From IMG/VR virus record IMGVR_UViG_3300009481_000120, positions 1-22,427 of that record: a stretch of 22,427 nucleotides of DNA, one strand, 5' to 3'. Below are positions 536 through 11,456 of the stretch, piece after piece. The DNA comes from a virus. The translations under genes and the position numbers were made by a program. Numbering within the stretch: position 1 is the first letter of the stretch; every line of letters begins with the position of its first letter. Under the pieces are notes generated by a model that ran no database searches, was not told the origin of the DNA, and saw only the letters and a program-made list of their open reading frames with translations.

Positions 536-1132
536 ATGAATCTTGCAGCAAATAGAAAAAGAGCTGTACTTGCTCCTTTGTTATTCGGTTCTCTTGGAGC
601 TGGATTTGTTGATACAGTTGCTCACGACGAATTAGATTATGTCGTCGATAAATACAAGTCATGGGATAGTGAATATAAAAAGGTAGCTGATCAGTGGCCT
701 AGGGTAGCCAGTGCTTACGATCATCTCGTAAGTCAAGGGCCATTCAGCATTATGGATGGTTACGGGATTTTAAATTTCTTAAAAGGGAGTAAAGCAGTAG
801 ATCTTAATTCCTTGACGAACGAAATGTTTCAGGAAGATCCCAGCTTACGCCACATGGCGGCTGCTACTGATATCAGTCAGAAATTAGGAGATGAAGAGAG
901 GCTTGCAATTCAATATATATTCCAAAAAGAATTGGAACTGATGAGCCAAGAAAGGTTGGCTGAAATGATGGATCCAGAAGCTGATTACAGTTCTGGAAGA
1001 GTCGTAGCAGCAGCGGAAGCAGGAGAAGGCACATCACCTATTCCTGCATTAATAGGAGGCTTAACAGGAGGAACTGGAGCTGCCCTTGGTTACGCAGCAG
1101 GAAACTACTTAAGAAATCGTAGAACCGTATGA
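536..1132 (+). CDS. Unknown protein between terminase and portal, Gly-rich C-terminal hydrophobic segment
   Basis: This 198-residue protein is not recognised. The N-terminal stretch (about residues 9-25) is hydrophobic and could be a membrane or packing helix. The middle is mixed charged and helical. The C-terminus (about 165-192) is rich in Gly and Ala, with small residues spaced like a glycine zipper, and ends in basic residues (N-R-R-T-V). The ATG lies 4 bases after the terL stop, and the last four bases (ATGA) overlap the portal start, so it is almost certainly cotranslated with both. Its position suggests a role in head assembly or packaging, but nothing in the sequence proves that. A membrane-associated protein is an alternative. 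Confidence 0.6.
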   Translation: MNLAANRKRAVLAPLLFGSLGAGFVDTVAHDELDYVVDKYKSWDSEYKKVADQWPRVASAYDHLVSQGPFSIMDGYGILNFLKGSKAVDLNSLTNEMFQEDPSLRHMAAATDISQKLGDEERLAIQYIFQKELELMSQERLAEMMDPEADYSSGRVVAAAEAGEGTSPIPALIGGLTGGTGAALGYAAGNYLRNRRTV

Positions 1133-3345
1133 GCGCACCAACTTCCGAGAGATTTAAACAGATACTTCAAGCTGCACGGAAACGTGATGGCATGAGTGGC
1201 ACTGACACAATGCTTGTCAATAGCCATTTAGCTCAGATGAAGCTTTTTATGCTTCGTCAAGGATTGGAATTCTTCCCCACTCAAGACACTTTCGGTTTCA
1301 GAAAGATGTTCTTGGCTCAGTTAGTCGAAGAGAATGAAATTGATACACGATTAGAAGGAATTGTTGATGACTTCTTAATTGACGGTAAAGGACTCTTTTA
1401 CTTCAGACCTGTAGGCGATTCCTACAGAATTATGTGGTTTAGCAAAGATAATTATCGTGCTTATTATGATTCCTCATCACAGCTTGAGGAGATCGAATTA
1501 ATTTATACCTTCTCTGTACGTTCAGGATTAGGAGGTTTAGCAACTCCAACCTCAGAGAATGGAAGTGAGAGATGGGTGAAACTACAAGTAAGGCGTGACA
1601 CGATTAAAGAGTCAATAACGACTGAACGTCCGTCATTCGAACATGGGGTAGGCAATAGTTACTCTTGGAGTCCTAATCAAACAAGAACACTTACGAATAG
1701 TCTTGGTTTCATTCCAGCAGTTGAATCATTCAACACGATGAAATCAACTGGCATGGATTCATCAGGTGATTTCGACTGGTTGGCAGAACAAATAGTTTTA
1801 CATGATGATCTTGTAAAAAATATTAGAACCAATATTCACTTCTTTGGTAATCCAACATTAGTTTCCAGCAGACCAAAGCATGATTTAGTTGAATCTGGAG
1901 ATGGAGATCAATTACGTCCAACAATAAGTTCACAAGCTGGTTTCTATTCAACAAATAGACCATCTACAAGGTTGAGTGAGCCTAGTGGAGGTGGTGGTAG
2001 TGGAATGAAGGTTCCGAGAGTTATTGCAAACGTTGAGCCAACTGATAGGGCTGTTTACTTAACTCCAGATGCGGTTTCAGGAGATCAGAATTTATATGCA
2101 AGACAATACAGAGAAGAATTAAGAACAGCTCTTGGCGGTGTTGATGAATTAGGAATCAGCTCAGGAGCAACTGCTTATGAAATCAAGTCGTTATATGGAC
2201 GTGCAGCTACAACCGCAACTCGTAGATGTAAGGGATTATTGACGTATGGATTGTGCAAATTATTTGGATTAATTATTTATCACGAAGAAAAAATCTTCCG
2301 AGATTCATTCGCAGCTTCTATAGGACTTGAGAAGCCTATGGTTCCTATTCAGGAAGAATTAGAGAATCCAGAAGAGTATCCATTATTGCTCGAAGCTTTT
2401 CAACAAGCACAAATTGCATTCGATACTGAGCTAGACAATAGAATCAGGGAAGCGGTACAAAATACCGAGCTTCCTCCCGGTGTTGTCGGTCTAATCCCCG
2501 ACGGCAATAGAAAAGTAGAATGGAGGTGGAAGGGTCCAGTCTTTGAAGACGGAACCGAAGATATACTGAATTCAAGTATCGTTGTTCGCAACTTACAAGA
2601 ACTCGGTGTAAACAGCATTGAAGCGTTGCGATATCTCTTCCCAGACAAAACGGATGAAGAGCGCAGTGCCATGTTGAGTGGTTATCCCTTCAGGATGGCC
2701 CAAGCAACACAACAAAGTATTGGTCAGTTCTTGTCGTTAATAAACGACATGAGAGCGACCCCACATCCGCAAGATCCAAGTCTGCCTTTACTTGCAGACC
2801 CACGATTGGACTTAACGCCTTATGTATATCGGGCACTCGAATTTTTATCAAAAGAATTGACTTATGCAGGACAGTATTCAGACGACTCAGCAGGTAGTGA
2901 ACCAAGCACCCTCGATACCATCGAGCGAGCCCGTGCCACAGCAGGCTTACCAACCAACACAGGTCCAGAGCGACCAAGTTTCGTACCAGACTCCTTCGGC
3001 TCCACAGGCACCGACTCCACAGGTGGCGGCACCACAGGTTCAGGAGGCGAATCCATGGCAGGAGGCGTTCCACAGACTGAGCGACTCACTGAGCGCAACG
3101 CAGAACTCCCAACCGCAGGCAGCTTACTCAACTCCGACCCCACAACAGCCGGAGACAACCAGCTATCCTTCAGCGACACAGAGCTACCAAGCAGCTCCAT
3201 CCGCTTCGGGGATGCAGACTTATCTGCCCCAAGCAACACCGGCGTACTCCCCGACCCAACAGGTGCAGGCGCAGAGCTCGAATCAGCAAGACAACGCAGT
3301 CAGTCAAGACGGGTATCTAGGAGCAGTAAGCGACGAAAGTCTTGA
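1129..3345 (+). CDS. Portal protein with long disordered C-terminal extension
   Basis: This 738-residue protein is a probable portal, the dodecameric ring at the capsid vertex through which DNA is packaged. Support is its place directly after terL, its length, and its texture: an alpha/beta N-terminal half, then a long helical part (about residues 325-400) with R-Q-Y-R-E-E-L and E-I-K-S-L-Y-G-R. A scaffold-like gene and a capsid gene follow downstream. Residues 1 to about 578 would already be a normal-sized portal. The last 160 residues are low-complexity, rich in Ser, Thr, Gly, Pro and Asp, and end in a strongly basic tail (S-K-R-R-K-S). That tail is encoded by DNA also read in another frame by the next gene. 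Codons there often end in C, unlike the rest of the gene. The start overlaps the previous stop (ATGA). Confidence 0.72.
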   Translation: MSAPTSERFKQILQAARKRDGMSGTDTMLVNSHLAQMKLFMLRQGLEFFPTQDTFGFRKMFLAQLVEENEIDTRLEGIVDDFLIDGKGLFYFRPVGDSYRIMWFSKDNYRAYYDSSSQLEEIELIYTFSVRSGLGGLATPTSENGSERWVKLQVRRDTIKESITTERPSFEHGVGNSYSWSPNQTRTLTNSLGFIPAVESFNTMKSTGMDSSGDFDWLAEQIVLHDDLVKNIRTNIHFFGNPTLVSSRPKHDLVESGDGDQLRPTISSQAGFYSTNRPSTRLSEPSGGGGSGMKVPRVIANVEPTDRAVYLTPDAVSGDQNLYARQYREELRTALGGVDELGISSGATAYEIKSLYGRAATTATRRCKGLLTYGLCKLFGLIIYHEEKIFRDSFAASIGLEKPMVPIQEELENPEEYPLLLEAFQQAQIAFDTELDNRIREAVQNTELPPGVVGLIPDGNRKVEWRWKGPVFEDGTEDILNSSIVVRNLQELGVNSIEALRYLFPDKTDEERSAMLSGYPFRMAQATQQSIGQFLSLINDMRATPHPQDPSLPLLADPRLDLTPYVYRALEFLSKELTYAGQYSDDSAGSEPSTLDTIERARATAGLPTNTGPERPSFVPDSFGSTGTDSTGGGTTGSGGESMAGGVPQTERLTERNAELPTAGSLLNSDPTTAGDNQLSFSDTELPSSSIRFGDADLSAPSNTGVLPDPTGAGAELESARQRSQSRRVSRSSKRRKS

Positions 3346-3925
3346 AGTAATTCAGCACTTCGGAGCAGAAGCACCAGCACTACTTAATAGATATGCATGC
3401 GTAGTTGAAGATGCATTAATAAATCAGGCTCAGGAGACAGCTAAGTCTTTACAACAGGTTGAGACACTTACTCAGTCAGTAGAAGGCGCTAAAAAGGTAG
3501 TTAAGGCAGCAGCAGAAGACAACGCTGCTTATCATGTCATGCTGACAAATCCTGACATGTTGTCAGAGTACGTCAACGACTTCTTTGGGCCAAACGGACC
3601 ACATCCAGTAGAGCTACCTCAAGATCGTCTAGCTGCGGAAGTTGCAGCAAATGAAGCTCGCACTCAGCAAGCAACATTTACACCAACTCCACAAGTACCA
3701 GCACAGACTTCACAGGCAGCTCCAAAGCAGGAAGCAGCAAAGCAACCAACTTTCCAGCGTCCTCAGATGGATATGCCATCACCGGGAACACAAGCTACTA
3801 AGCAAGGTGACTTCTGGGCGGCATTCTCTAACTTGAGCGATAAGAACCCAGCAGCAGCATGGCAGGTATTAAGTCAAGCTTCTCCTGAGCAGCTAAGAAG
3901 TAAAGTGTTAGTGTCCGAAGAGTAG
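2864..3925 (+). CDS. Scaffold-like head assembly protein, first 160 codons overprinted on the portal gene
   Basis: This 353-residue protein sits where a capsid scaffold is expected. Residues 1-155 are almost entirely Gln, Pro, Ala, Ser and Thr. Residues about 160-250 are helical and charged, with Q-Q-V-E-T-L-T-Q-S-V-E-G-A-K-K like a coiled coil, then N-D-F-F-G-P-N-G-P. A second Gln/Pro/Ala linker follows, and the C-terminus (F-W-A-A-F-S-N-L-S-D onward) looks like a short capsid-binding helix. A helical core with disordered flanks is typical of scaffolds. In this frame a TGA lies 6 bases before the ATG at 2864, so no earlier start exists. The ribosome site there is weak (AGAA). A later ATG at 3212 (residue 117), preceded by CGGGG, is possible but would leave most of the open frame unexplained. 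The first 482 bases lie within the portal gene, shifted by +1. Confidence 0.62.
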   Translation: MQDSIQTTQQVVNQAPSIPSSEPVPQQAYQPTQVQSDQVSYQTPSAPQAPTPQVAAPQVQEANPWQEAFHRLSDSLSATQNSQPQAAYSTPTPQQPETTSYPSATQSYQAAPSASGMQTYLPQATPAYSPTQQVQAQSSNQQDNAVSQDGYLGAVSDESLEVIQHFGAEAPALLNRYACVVEDALINQAQETAKSLQQVETLTQSVEGAKKVVKAAAEDNAAYHVMLTNPDMLSEYVNDFFGPNGPHPVELPQDRLAAEVAANEARTQQATFTPTPQVPAQTSQAAPKQEAAKQPTFQRPQMDMPSPGTQATKQGDFWAAFSNLSDKNPAAAWQVLSQASPEQLRSKVLVSEE

Positions 3926-5294: not shown

Positions 5295-6386
5295 ATGACT
5301 ACATCATCATTAGGAAGCAAGAGCTTCTTAAAGGGGTGGGACGAGCTGACGACTTGGGTAACTTCAACAAACAATCGAATTTATGTCGGTTGGTTTGGAG
5401 TCCTAATGATTCCTTGTCTCCTTGCAGCAGTAAGTTGCTTTATCATTGCATTTATAGCTGCTCCGCCTGTTGATATCGACGGCATCCGTGAGCCAGTAGC
5501 TGGTTCATTTTTATATGGCAACAACATTATTTCTGGTGCTGTTGTACCTTCTAGTAACGCTATCGGCTTACACTTCTACCCCATATGGGAAGCGGCGACG
5601 TTAGACGAATGGCTTTATAACGGTGGTCCATATCAATTAGTTGTATTTCACTTTTTAATAGGAATATCTGCATACATGGGAAGACAGTGGGAGCTGTCAT
5701 ACCGTCTAGGCATGCGTCCTTGGATCTGTGTTGCTTATTCAGCACCAGTATCTGCTGCATTCGCTGTATTCCTTGTATATCCATTTGGTCAGGGATCATT
5801 CTCTGATGGAATGCCTTTAGGAATATCTGGAACATTTAATTTCATGTTCGTATTCCAAGCTGAGCACAATATCCTCATGCATCCATTCCACATGGCAGGT
5901 GTGGCAGGCATGTTTGGTGGTGCTTTGTTTAGTGCTATGCATGGTTCATTGGTTACATCTTCACTTATTCGTGAAACCACAGGTCTGACTTCTCAGAATT
6001 ATGGTTACAAATTCGGACAAGAAGAAGAGACTTATAACATCGTTGCAGCACATGGATATTTTGGACGACTAATCTTCCAATACGCTTCATTTAATAACTC
6101 CAGAAGTCTTCACTTCTTCCTAGCAAGCTGGCCTGTTATATGTGTCTGGCTTACAAGTATGGGGATAAGTACCATGGCTTTCAACTTAAATGGCTTCAAC
6201 TTTAATCAGTCTGTCGTAGACTATGAAGGTAAAGTCATCCCAACATGGGGAGACGTATTAAATAGAGCAAACCTCGGAATGGAAGTAATGCATGAGCGAA
6301 ATGCTCATAACTTCCCATTAGATCTAGCTTCAATAGAATCTGATGCATCATATGATATTGCTTTAACAGCACCTTCAGTTGGTTAA
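5295..6386 (+). CDS. psbA: Photosystem II D1 protein
   Basis: This 363-residue protein is a full-length D1, the reaction-centre subunit that binds the primary pigments, the plastoquinone QB and the manganese cluster in the thylakoid membrane. Numbering is one higher than the usual cyanobacterial D1. Visible key residues are Tyr162 (TyrZ), Asp171, Glu190 and His191 (Mn cluster side), His199 and His216 (P680 and iron sites), Ser265 (QB site), His273 (iron), and His333, Glu334, His338, Asp343 and Ala345 (Mn cluster). After Ala345 there is an 18-residue extension that the host protease CtpA would remove. The five-helix core is intact. The N-terminus (residues 5-20) and S-A-Y-M-G instead of the usual F-C-Y-M-G show it is a phage-type divergent copy. 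Phage D1 is known to replace host D1 during infection. It lies between virion-type genes. Confidence 0.98.
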
Positions 6387-9176: not shown

Positions 9177-9968
9177 TTAGTACCCACCACCATACGGAGC
9201 TGTACTAGTAAGCGTAGCCATATTTGCACTTGAACCGCTGATGGTTCCACTTACTCTCCAATACATTTTAAGTCTTCCATAAGGAACCATTCGTCCAATG
9301 ATTGTTCCTTTCATTATTGTCAGGGTACCAGTCGATTCAGAAGTACCTAGAGCTGTACCACTGATTTCGTCTAGTTGGCTTAAAGGAGTCAGGGTAAGAC
9401 CATTCTCATTCACTCCTGAAGCTGTACCAAATAGCTTGACCAGACCAATACGACCAGTTAGCTCATTACGTCCAGTAGCCGTTCCATCTAGCAGTAGATA
9501 ACGAATGACTTGAAGACTTACGCTAAATGGCAATGCCTGCCACTGAGAGTTGCAAACAGTTAGGTAGTAAGTTCCTTTCGGTAGTTGTAAGTTGCTTTCT
9601 AAAACATCAGTATTAATAATTTCATTTTTGCAAGCAAAGCCATCTGGCTGGATCCTTATTTGATCTAAATGTTCGTTGAGCAATCCAAAAGATATATATT
9701 GATCTTCGTATTTGTTCAGTGAATTTTTAATAGCTCTTAAATCAGACTCTCCCGATGTGGTGACTTTGAAGTAAAGAGTATTCGTACCGACTTCAGACCC
9801 AACAGATCCTGTTAATGTTGTGTTCAGATTAAAGACTATACCAAGGTTCTTGGCTTTTGCAGGAGTATTATATTTGACATGTTCAGGTCTTAAGAATGAA
9901 GGTGATGATTTATCACTGCCCCCATAAGACTCTTTGATTTTGTTTATAGAGCCTGTTAAAGAAGTCAT
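9177..9968 (-). CDS. Repeat-containing probable virion protein
   Basis: This protein of about 263 residues is not assigned to a named family. The N-terminal 165 residues look like a beta-sandwich domain (residues about 37-155, ending G-T-Y-Y-L-T-V-C-N-S). The rest is a loose repeat of 20-24 residues built on G-T-A-x-G-x-x-E: D-G-T-A-T-G-R-N-E-L-T-G, then F-G-T-A-S-G-V-N-E-N-G, then S-G-T-A-L-G-T-S-E-S-T-G, then G-T-I-S-G-S-S-A-N. Such short beta repeats are usual in fibre or surface proteins. I chose the ATG at 9968, five bases after the CP12-like stop. A GTG at 9980, directly after an in-frame stop, would add four residues. Two cysteines occur, at about 115 and 143. Confidence 0.6.
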   Translation of the reverse strand: MTSLTGSINKIKESYGGSDKSSPSFLRPEHVKYNTPAKAKNLGIVFNLNTTLTGSVGSEVGTNTLYFKVTTSGESDLRAIKNSLNKYEDQYISFGLLNEHLDQIRIQPDGFACKNEIINTDVLESNLQLPKGTYYLTVCNSQWQALPFSVSLQVIRYLLLDGTATGRNELTGRIGLVKLFGTASGVNENGLTLTPLSQLDEISGTALGTSESTGTLTIMKGTIIGRMVPYGRLKMYWRVSGTISGSSANMATLTSTAPYGGGY

Positions 9969-9973
9969 AAGGA

Positions 9974-10096
9974 TTAGCACTCATATAACCGACACTCCTC
10001 ATCCGACGGATTTTCTTCGCAATACTCTAAGTATCGTCGTCGTTGTGGAGAGAGGATTGGTGAGTCTAGGTCGTCTTGGTCAAGAGAGTCGCTCAT
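9974..10096 (-). CDS. 40-residue CP12-like protein (C-terminal GAPDH-binding module only)
   Basis: This short frame reads M-S-D-S-L-D-Q-D-D-L and ends EYCEENPSDEECRLYEC. That tail matches the C-terminal module of CP12 (E-Y-C-x-x-N-P-x-x-x-E-C-R-x-Y-D/E), including the C-x8-C pair (Cys26, Cys35). In CP12 that pair forms a redox-controlled disulfide loop, and this end of the protein binds the Calvin-cycle enzyme GAPDH. The upstream CP12 part that binds phosphoribulokinase (A-W-D-x-V-E-E-L) is missing. An arginine run (R-R-R-Y-L) precedes the motif, and an extra Cys is the last residue. A stop codon lies directly before the ATG in frame, so no longer form exists. The next gene starts 5 bases after the stop, as in an operon. 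Full-length cp12 is a known cyanophage auxiliary gene; a module-only form is an inference from the motif. Confidence 0.68.
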   Translation of the reverse strand: MSDSLDQDDLDSPILSPQRRRYLEYCEENPSDEECRLYEC

Positions 10097-10264
10097 TCAA
10101 CATGGGAACCCTTGTATAGACGTATTTTAGTAATTCTTATGAGTCAGGAGCCCTACACGTTGGGATACGCCTAGGGATCAGTTTAAAGTTCTAAGAAACT
10201 ACAAAAATTAGAACTCCTAACCCATGCAACCCCTGACGTAGTTCTTCTTCGGGGCAAGCTTAAT
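10097..10264. other. 168-base non-coding gap with an 8-base inverted repeat
   Basis: This is the largest gap between genes in the window. I find no plausible frame in it on either strand. It holds a perfect inverted repeat, AGTTCTAA (10187-10194) and TTAGAACT (10208-10215), with a 13-base loop and no clear T run. On the minus strand CTAAAATAC (10122-10130) could be a promoter for the CP12-like gene. I saw no tRNA cloverleaf and could not recognise an intron core. Confidence 0.5.
10122..10130 (-). promoter_or_regulatory. Possible promoter motif CTAAAATAC before the CP12-like gene
   Basis: Reading the minus strand, this AT-rich string lies 25 bases before the ATG at 10096. It resembles the CTAAAAATAC before the gene at 9114 and loosely the ATAAATA elements on the + strand. 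No matching -35 box was identified. Confidence 0.25.
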
Positions 10265-10855
10265 CTATCTGAATTTTGATAGTTGTGGCCTAAGTTTCTT
10301 TTTCATATTGATGTGAATCAAAGGTCTGATCAAATTAAACAGCTCATGTAATGCATCTTTCTTGAAACTGAGCTGGATGATCGTTAGATGGTTTCGATGA
10401 ATTTTGGCTGGAATACTTAAATCGTTAAACCATGATTCCAAAGCTTCGTATTCCCTTTCTGAATATTTACCCCTAATAGAACCCTTCTTTCCAGTAATTC
10501 TTCCTTGATCAATCCATAATGCAGCAGCTCCTTTTAATCCAGTCGTATTCAAGACCTCTCTGGATATCATTCGCTTGTCTCTGGGATATAACAGTTCATA
10601 AGCTCGCCAAAGCATATCCCCTTGAAACCTGAATCGTTCCATATCGTAGAAACCATCAGTTGGCACACGATCCCAAACGTAATCAACAGGTCCATCGTGA
10701 TACTGACGTAATTTCCTGAGTTGATGATCTAAATAAGTTCGATCAATTTCTAATCTTTTAATTTCAAGCCATGGCCTTCTCCTTCTCCCCTTCAGGCTTA
10801 TTGATCCCTTTCCCAAGCTGTAACTCAGTGCGTGAGCTACGAATTGAGCTGACAT
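10265..10855 (-). CDS. Second LAGLIDADG-type endonuclease-like protein, degenerate first motif
   Basis: This 196-residue protein appears related to the gene just upstream. The two N-termini align from Met without gaps: M-S-A-Q-F-V-A-H-A-L-S-Y-S-L-G-K-G-S-I against M-D-A-A-D-V-R-G-L-L-G-L-L-V-G-D-G-S-L. Both also share L-L-Y-P and then a G-x2-A/G-A-A-x-L-W segment (here G-L-K-G-A-A-A-L-W-I-D-Q-G). The acidic residue that would end the first LAGLIDADG helix is Lys16 here, so cleavage at that site is doubtful, while an Asp is kept in the second motif. It could be an inactive copy, a partner subunit or a DNA-binding maturase-like protein. The start overlaps the upstream gene by 92 bases and is supported by the N-terminal alignment. 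Confidence 0.55.
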   Translation of the reverse strand: MSAQFVAHALSYSLGKGSISLKGRRRRPWLEIKRLEIDRTYLDHQLRKLRQYHDGPVDYVWDRVPTDGFYDMERFRFQGDMLWRAYELLYPRDKRMISREVLNTTGLKGAAALWIDQGRITGKKGSIRGKYSEREYEALESWFNDLSIPAKIHRNHLTIIQLSFKKDALHELFNLIRPLIHINMKKKLRPQLSKFR

Positions 10856-11456
10856 CCCATGACTCCTTGTTGAAGAGGTGTATTCGACTTTTTGGTGCGT
10901 AATGCTTTAAAACTTCTCTGATCTTTTGAGACTGTTCAGGATCGAAGAAGATTCGAGGTCTTACATATGCCTCATCGATTGATCCATCTGCTCCTGTCAG
11001 CATGGTTAGCCAGCCACAGATAAGTTGAGCCTCCTCAAAGGTTGAGCCAACCCTTCCAAGCAAAACAGACCCATCTTTCATCGGTTTATTACCTTCAGCC
11101 CATAACCACGCAGCAGCTTGAGCACCAAGCAAATCAAGCGTAGTTTTCGTTAATTGCTTTTCTCCTATTGGATAAAGGAGATTGTAAACAGGACGCAATT
11201 TGTTGGTTGAGACCCTAAATCTTAGTATTTGGGTTGATTTACCACTATTACGAGGCTTAGTTTTATAGGGAACAATTTTGGCCCTCGTGAAAATAAATTG
11301 CTTAAATTCGTCAACTTTTTCTTCTAAAAATGCAGACTCAGTTGCACCGGCTGTGAGAGTTAATTGGATATAACCTCCGCTAGGAGTGCGATATGGGACA
11401 AGACTCCCATCTCCAACCAGTAATCCTAAGAGCCCCCTTACATCAGCGGCATCCAA
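10764..11456 (-). CDS. LAGLIDADG-type homing endonuclease
   Basis: This 230-residue protein looks like a free-standing two-motif LAGLIDADG endonuclease, a mobile gene that cuts DNA at a long target site. Residues 8-19 (G-L-L-G-L-L-V-G-D-G-S-L) fit the first LAGLIDADG helix with catalytic Asp16. Residues about 112-123 (A-Q-A-A-A-W-L-W-A-E-G-N) fit the second, with Glu in place of Asp. The regions after each motif alternate strands and helices, as in the DNA-binding saddle. No splice-site or intein features are visible, so it seems intron-free. It lies directly upstream of and divergent from the capsid gene, a usual type of location for phage homing genes. It is the first gene of the minus-strand block. 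Confidence 0.65.
   Translation of the reverse strand: MDAADVRGLLGLLVGDGSLVPYRTPSGGYIQLTLTAGATESAFLEEKVDEFKQFIFTRAKIVPYKTKPRNSGKSTQILRFRVSTNKLRPVYNLLYPIGEKQLTKTTLDLLGAQAAAWLWAEGNKPMKDGSVLLGRVGSTFEEAQLICGWLTMLTGADGSIDEAYVRPRIFFDPEQSQKIREVLKHYAPKSRIHLFNKESWDVSSIRSSRTELQLGKGINKPEGEKEKAMA

Follow-up and report, generated by a model that had tools for sequence, protein, structure and literature searches.

The question raised by this locus is whether a minus-strand frame of only 40 codons in a phage fragment is a gene at all, and which part of CP12 its product has kept. Few intrinsically disordered regulators have been studied as well as CP12, and its phage version is the textbook case of the viral shut-off of carbon fixation. 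The window, i.e. the whole stretch of DNA analyzed here, is a 22,427-base IMG/VR virus fragment whose gene content includes psbA (5295-6386, plus strand; its other photosynthesis-related gene), terminase, portal, capsid and lysozyme. The initial annotation had claimed a 40-residue frame with a C-x8-C pair and an E-C-R-x-Y motif at 9974-10096 of the minus strand, and this frame is present as described. It starts with an ATG at 10096, ends with a TAA stop at 9976-9974 and encodes MSDSLDQDDLDSPILSPQRRRYLEYCEENPSDEECRLYEC; we refer to the gene as mini-cp12 and to its product as mini-CP12. The protein carries C26-x8-C35, ECRxY, a run of arginines at residues 19-21 and a final C40. Its tail reads C26-x3-P30-x4-C35-R-L-Y, which corresponds to CxxxPxxxxC followed by [RK]x[YF], and no cysteine occurs before residue 26, so that the canonical N-terminal Cys pair is absent. 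A plus-strand frame (9934-10119) overlaps mini-cp12.

A CP12 profile search had been proposed as a check on the frame. Against Pfam, the only family matching mini-CP12 was PF02672 (CP12), with an E-value of 3.6e-5 and a significant score of 24.9 bits compared to the cut-off of 22.7 bits; the alignment places residues 18-39 on profile positions 49-70. In a six-frame search of the genome the gene scored 22 bits, slightly under the cut-off, and for this reason the Pfam match taken alone is borderline. All of the 17 aligned relatives match PF02672 and no second family (best E-value 3.9e-7). PHROG 627, which represents T4-like cyanophage CP12, matches mini-CP12 at 7.1e-5 in two stretches, and a profile built from 43 T4-like phage CP12s gave 31.6 bits. 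Searching the PDB with the sequence of mini-CP12 returned CP12 polypeptides and the GapB tail, and the profile of the relatives found the GAPDH-bound CP12 peptide 3zdf_C, a 23-residue polypeptide in a solved structure, at 9e-8. An AlphaFold model of mini-CP12 predicts a helix at residues 17-28. When this model of 40 amino acids was used for a fold search, the five best PDB matches were CP12 chains in GAPDH complexes, and four of the five superpose at 1.1-1.3 Å over about 20 residues, all with E-values that are not significant.

Relatives were collected from IMG/VR by means of the neighboring genes, and further ones by searching with short CP12s. About 20 contigs carry cp12 in a shared slot between HE1 (10265-10855, minus strand in the window; a LAGLIDADG_2-like endonuclease with a weak match of 0.003) and a 267-aa gene. 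In this slot we observed forms of 40-42 aa (L004, L006, L007, L009, L010, L013), of about 54 aa (L020/L021, L031, L050-L052, L054-L057, L059, L066, L071, L077) and, in L061, of 70 aa. The initial annotation would have taken missing conservation in relatives as evidence against the frame, but both frame and position are indeed kept in these uncultured phage contigs. Comparing the window copy with L006 over 22 core codons, we counted seven synonymous and no nonsynonymous differences, and pooled pN/pS amounts to 0.06 in the window's subclade and to 0.24 over the clade. The core of mini-cp12 is under strong purifying selection in this subclade, and mini-cp12 is a real gene; synteny and the synonymous-biased change rule out a chance frame or an overlap artefact.

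The gene is nevertheless dispensable, since 16 of the 37 contigs scored lack it. On a tree of the HE2 protein (10764-11456, minus strand; a LAGLIDADG_2 endonuclease, 9.8e-9, and the second upstream neighbor), the presence and absence of cp12 requires at least five changes. The 40-aa form is restricted to one well-supported set of 11 rows in this tree, which contains three members without cp12, so that loss is common. In three contigs of 66-68 kb from members without the locus copy, no cp12 relocated elsewhere was found. It could be argued that mini-cp12 is a decaying remnant, i.e. a cp12 which degenerated after an internal deletion and lost its function, and the deletion itself (see below), the several close relatives without cp12 and the shifted, oddly spaced ribosome-binding site of the window copy would agree with this. 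However, the purely synonymous divergence from L006, the maintenance of frame, cysteines and short length across the clade and the occurrence of short forms in at least four cyanophage lineages all speak against decay, which we strongly disfavor and regard as very improbable.

According to the initial annotation, the frame encodes only the GAPDH-binding end of CP12, the match being confined to the last 17 residues. The C-terminal module is real and intact: residues 25-39 (YCEENPSDEECRLYE; 9980-10024, minus strand), including C26-x8-C35, represent the GAPDH-binding module by homology. Every conserved hook residue is retained in the window protein, and both cysteines and the proline of CxxxPxxxxC are invariant in the 17 aligned sequences. 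The central part of CP12 is gone, but the missing piece is internal, and the view that only the last 17 residues derive from CP12 is ruled out by residues 6-24 (DQDDLDSPILSPQRRRYLE; 10025-10081, minus strand), which match the N-terminal region of T4-like phage CP12 and directly abut the C-terminal module. The 43-member profile aligns to mini-CP12 as two abutting segments, profile positions 13-31 on residues 6-24 (16.8 bits) and positions 57-71 on residues 25-39 (17.4 bits). The 25 positions in between (32-56), comprising the central helix and the HDPT linker and equivalent to the region of the canonical AWD_VEE core, are absent. With a profile of the N-terminal part of phage CP12, the N-terminal part of mini-CP12 scored 23.8 bits, a value reached by none of 5000 shuffles, and the N-termini of L004 and L006 gave the same outcome. 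From the two abutting segments together with the shuffle result, the window protein is best interpreted as a phage CP12 with an internal deletion. In the 54-aa forms the leaders reach at most 2.6 bits against the N-terminal profile, and for L052 the score was equaled by 159 of 5000 shuffles; these forms may have inherited the same deletion, or they may have been shortened separately and acquired a new leader.

Two further features had been considered as oddities, and both turned out to be ordinary. C40 is not an added residue, as it fills the normal last position of CP12, at which other relatives have D, V, L or S. Nearly all relatives conserve the arginine run in the form RR[KR].

Next to mini-cp12 lies a downstream gene (9177-9968, minus strand; 263-267 aa, no family match), whose ATG at 9968 is found 5 nt past the mini-cp12 stop. 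In L031 the cp12 stop and the next start overlap (TAATG), and the short gap in the window together with this overlap makes translational coupling of mini-cp12 to the downstream gene likely. As for the start signals, a conserved, Shine-Dalgarno-like AAGGG can be read at 10109-10113 (minus strand). In L006 an AAGGG stands 5 nt ahead of the start of the 42-codon form. Within 10097-10114 of the minus strand (ATGTCTATGAGTGAC in L006, ATGTTGAATGAGCGAC in the window) a difference of 1 nt shifts the AAGGG-adjacent ATG out of frame in the window; owing to this shift, the start used lies 12 nt from AAGGG, with a frame of seven codons (MLNERLS) ahead of mini-cp12.

The placement beside virion genes rather than other metabolic genes had been thought unusual. 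This is not the case, as tail or baseplate genes adjoin cp12 in the phages S-SSM5, S-CAM9, S-PRM1, S-SCSM1, S-B64 and S-CREM1 and virion-gene neighbors are thus normal for phage cp12. The surroundings could still be taken to mean that the CP12 tail has been recruited for another target, or as a small protein of the virion or its assembly: the neighborhood of mini-cp12 consists of the 267-aa gene, the gene of a head protein and that of the major capsid protein, and mini-cp12 would probably be translated in coupling with its downstream neighbor. Against such a role, the conserved residues coincide exactly with the GAPDH hook, and the T4-like cp12 adjoining tail genes is a metabolic gene in the literature, so that we hold a virion-associated function to be quite improbable.

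Several observations concern the wider gene neighborhood. psbA occurs in most relatives and is missing between the same neighbors in L014, L021, L033 and L034. A frame of 353 aa (2864-3925, plus strand) overlaps the portal gene (1129-3345) in a different frame over about 480 nt (2864-3345); in the relatives L014, L033 and L034 the frame likewise stays open across the portal overlap, here about 500 nt, and can be aligned from its first residue onwards, and the region is possibly a long dual-coding stretch. The capsid gene is uninterrupted in the window and interrupted at several sites in relatives (also L004, L005, L012, L013 and L014), with Rfam group I introns in the capsid gene at L055:1664-1901, L055:1326-1571 and L054:2037-2336 (all minus strand). 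The two free-standing LAGLIDADG_2 genes (10265-11456 in the window, minus strand) adjoin the capsid gene throughout and lie outside the capsid insertions.

Just upstream of cp12, the segment that separates it from HE1 contains a structured RNA of 117 nt (10141-10257, minus strand), in which three hairpins are combined with a three-way junction and a loop-loop pseudoknot; copies in relatives are located at L006:6599-6718, L034:5835-5951 and L050:1363-1480. The 21 clade loci giving a match contain a single copy each, and no match was obtained in eight loci outside the clade, in S-EIV1 or in the host genomes tested. Over 19 distinct sequences, 96% of the pair cells are standard and 29 of 34 pairs have changed on both sides; no shuffle approaches the observed level of covariation. 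A helix forms between the loops of hairpins 1 and 2 (AACUAC/GUAGUU, AACUAU/AUAGUU, AACGGC/GCCGUU, AACGAC/GUCGUU and AACUGC/GCAGUU) and covaries, including in sequences outside model building. Loop 1 resembles the loop of Rfam CyVA-1, with a match of 20.8-26.3 bits that is well under the family cut-off of 41.4. The RNA is retained in clade members without cp12 and is therefore not specific to cp12; a function as a cp12-specific regulator is not supported. We regard this RNA as a candidate for a new RNA family, and it may be a more novel object of the region than mini-cp12.

For better evaluation of the miniature form we compared it with known CP12s. Canonical CP12 (Thermosynechococcus, Arabidopsis) has the C-terminal CxxxPxxxxC hook in common with mini-CP12, but it comprises about 75-80 aa with two Cys pairs and the AWD_VEE core and bridges GAPDH and phosphoribulokinase (PRK), whereas mini-CP12 lacks the first pair and the core. 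T4-like cyanophage CP12 (S-SSM5 gp017, S-CAM9 gp014; PHROG 627) shares L-x-NP-x-x-SPQ-x-RR and YC-x-x-NP-x4-ECR-x-Y with mini-CP12, is likewise located among virion genes and also has no N-terminal Cys pair. However, it is 70-88 aa long and possesses the central helix and HDPT linker (the 25 profile positions), both of which mini-CP12 has lost; the T4-like layout of N-segment, central helix, HDPT linker and C-hook, with its total of about 70-77 aa, is therefore not found in the 40-aa protein. The contrast with a 'full' phage CP12 is less pronounced than the initial annotation had claimed, since the N-terminal Cys pair is missing there and in the small-genome host CP12s examined too, and short forms exist elsewhere.

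The small cyanobacterial genomes examined contain a host CP12, and five CP12s from small genomes, taken as picocyanobacterial on account of genome size and sequence, have the T4-like phage layout, e.g. MKSIDEHIQKDQSEIEAARASGDEAKVRHLTSELHSLEEYKEHNPEDKHDPTSLELYCDANPDADECRVYDD. We surveyed 194 genomes sampled from the host phylum and re-examined 13. Among the matches listed, convincing CP12s span most of the profile and belong to frames at least 74 aa long, and C-terminal-only matches have E-values of 0.68-0.83, which argues against a host-derived microgene. A contig scan with a phage CP12 gave mostly filamentous cyanobacteria.

Short forms are found in other phages. S-CAM7 gp031 (39 aa, 'hypothetical protein') is a stand-alone CP12 C-terminal module with 24.2 bits, above the Pfam cut-off; it differs from mini-CP12 in belonging to a Kyanoviridae phage, in its N-terminal half and in its neighborhood, and is probably an independent reduction. 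S-EIV1, in which alone among isolates the portal (48%) and capsid (69%) proteins of the window have homologues, has an unannotated frame of 45 aa (KJ410740 5931-6068, minus strand; L001:11923-12060) with the C-terminal module at 25.7 bits, likewise above the cut-off. Its start overlaps the preceding stop and the next ATG abuts its own stop; in contrast to mini-cp12 it stands before a gene annotated PurM and has another leader and no RR motif. In S-CRES3 gp30 (L038:1896-2060; 54 aa, annotated 'CP12 domain protein') and in an unannotated 57-aa frame of S-CBS2 (L190:777-950) both C-terminal cysteines are replaced (EENPSRLEAKIYDV and EENPSRLEARIYDV, respectively), and this replacement would abolish redox control. 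From these four copies (39-57 aa) it follows that several cyanophage lineages possess short CP12 tails. The sister contigs (L031, L050-L052, L054-L057, L059, L066, L077) encode about 54 aa in the same slot as mini-cp12 with the core LRRKFLxYCEENPxAEECRxY, and differ by a longer, unrelated-looking leader and by D, V or L as final residue. Outside CP12 itself, 10 of 16 residues are common to the mini-CP12 tail and the C-terminal extension of plant GapB; the latter is fused to GAPDH and is thus no freely diffusing effector. The GapB tail is an autonomous GAPDH inhibitor without a PRK-binding half.

What, then, would this conserved CP12 homologue with its two abutting segments do in the host cell? 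We consider it likely that it is a miniature CP12 derived by internal deletion, whose oxidized tail blocks Gap2 without recruiting PRK. The ancestor would have been a CP12 of about 72 aa, of the host or T4-like-phage type, from which the N-terminal Cys pair was already gone. Loss of about 25 internal residues, namely the central helix and the HDPT linker, would have left a leader that is short and acidic, a helix (RRR[YF]LEYC) and the C-terminal hook closed by a disulfide; as the T4-like starting form may itself not bind PRK, this deletion need not have altered PRK binding. With C26 and C35 oxidized, the tail would enter the active site of the host photosynthetic GAPDH (Gap2) in the manner of CP12 and the GapB tail, and the use of NADPH by the Calvin cycle would be slowed. 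Without the second binding half the GAPDH-PRK bridge should not form, and the phage would find NADPH and sugar phosphates still available for making nucleotides. We infer that the protein is translated in infected cells, binds and inhibits GAPDH under redox control, as the sequence and solved complexes suggest, recruits no PRK and benefits the phage.

Published data are in line with several of these steps. Solved complexes show the oxidized C-terminal hook of CP12 with its last residues in the active site of GAPDH, which the GapB tail enters likewise, in cis (PMC4436894, PMC9406205). A Synechocystis cp12 mutant is nearly complemented by CP12 without the N-terminal Cys pair and poorly by CP12 without the C-terminal pair (PMC9623430), so that a GAPDH-only CP12 can suffice. 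One could object that mini-CP12 is an ordinary CP12 whose N-terminal remnant still bridges GAPDH and PRK, as phage CP12 residues 6-24 are retained. However, the entire central helix is gone together with the N-terminal Cys pair, which is the PRK docking site of canonical CP12 (PMC9623430) and whose loss counts against bridging, and we find this hardly credible.

T4-like phage cp12 is highly expressed during infection in the light, and in the published model a block of the Calvin cycle spares NADPH for nucleotide synthesis (PMC5082946). By analogy, mini-CP12 would serve the same purpose, minus the recruitment of PRK. The opposite effect is conceivable: mini-CP12 could compete with host CP12 and displace it from GAPDH, so that no GAPDH-CP12-PRK complex forms and PRK, or some GAPDH, stays active. 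In favor of competition, mini-CP12 has the GAPDH module in common with host CP12 and lacks the second half for PRK bridging, and a host CP12 was found in the small genomes examined. In known structures, however, the bound tail occupies the active site and inhibits (PMC4436894), and infection data point towards shutdown of the Calvin cycle (PMC5082946), so that competition appears unlikely and inhibition of Gap2 by the oxidized tail is the reading we prefer.

A deep-branching cp12 has been described in cyanosiphoviruses in a 2023 paper (PMC10665884). In the literature searched, outside which most subscription journals lie, we found no paper on a 40-aa internally deleted CP12, and within the same literature no binding test of any phage CP12. 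What is new is the form of 40 aa with its internal deletion, the finding that an uncultured clade related to S-EIV1 conserves it at one locus, and the unannotated copies. CP12 microgenes are overlooked by annotation, as the initial annotation had supposed from the small size of the gene: the S-EIV1 and S-CBS2 copies are unannotated and that of S-CAM7 is listed as 'hypothetical'. As a natural version of only 40 residues that is accessible by peptide synthesis, mini-CP12 would permit a direct test of what a virus needs from CP12, the inhibition of GAPDH alone or the complex of GAPDH with PRK. With regard to the family as a whole, we are somewhat inclined to believe that cyanophages have repeatedly and independently cut CP12 down to a hook of 39-57 aa for GAPDH only, with even the C-terminal cysteines missing in S-CRES3 and S-CBS2, which would throttle carbon fixation at GAPDH and leave PRK out, and that the lineage of the window did so by an internal deletion fusing the two ends.
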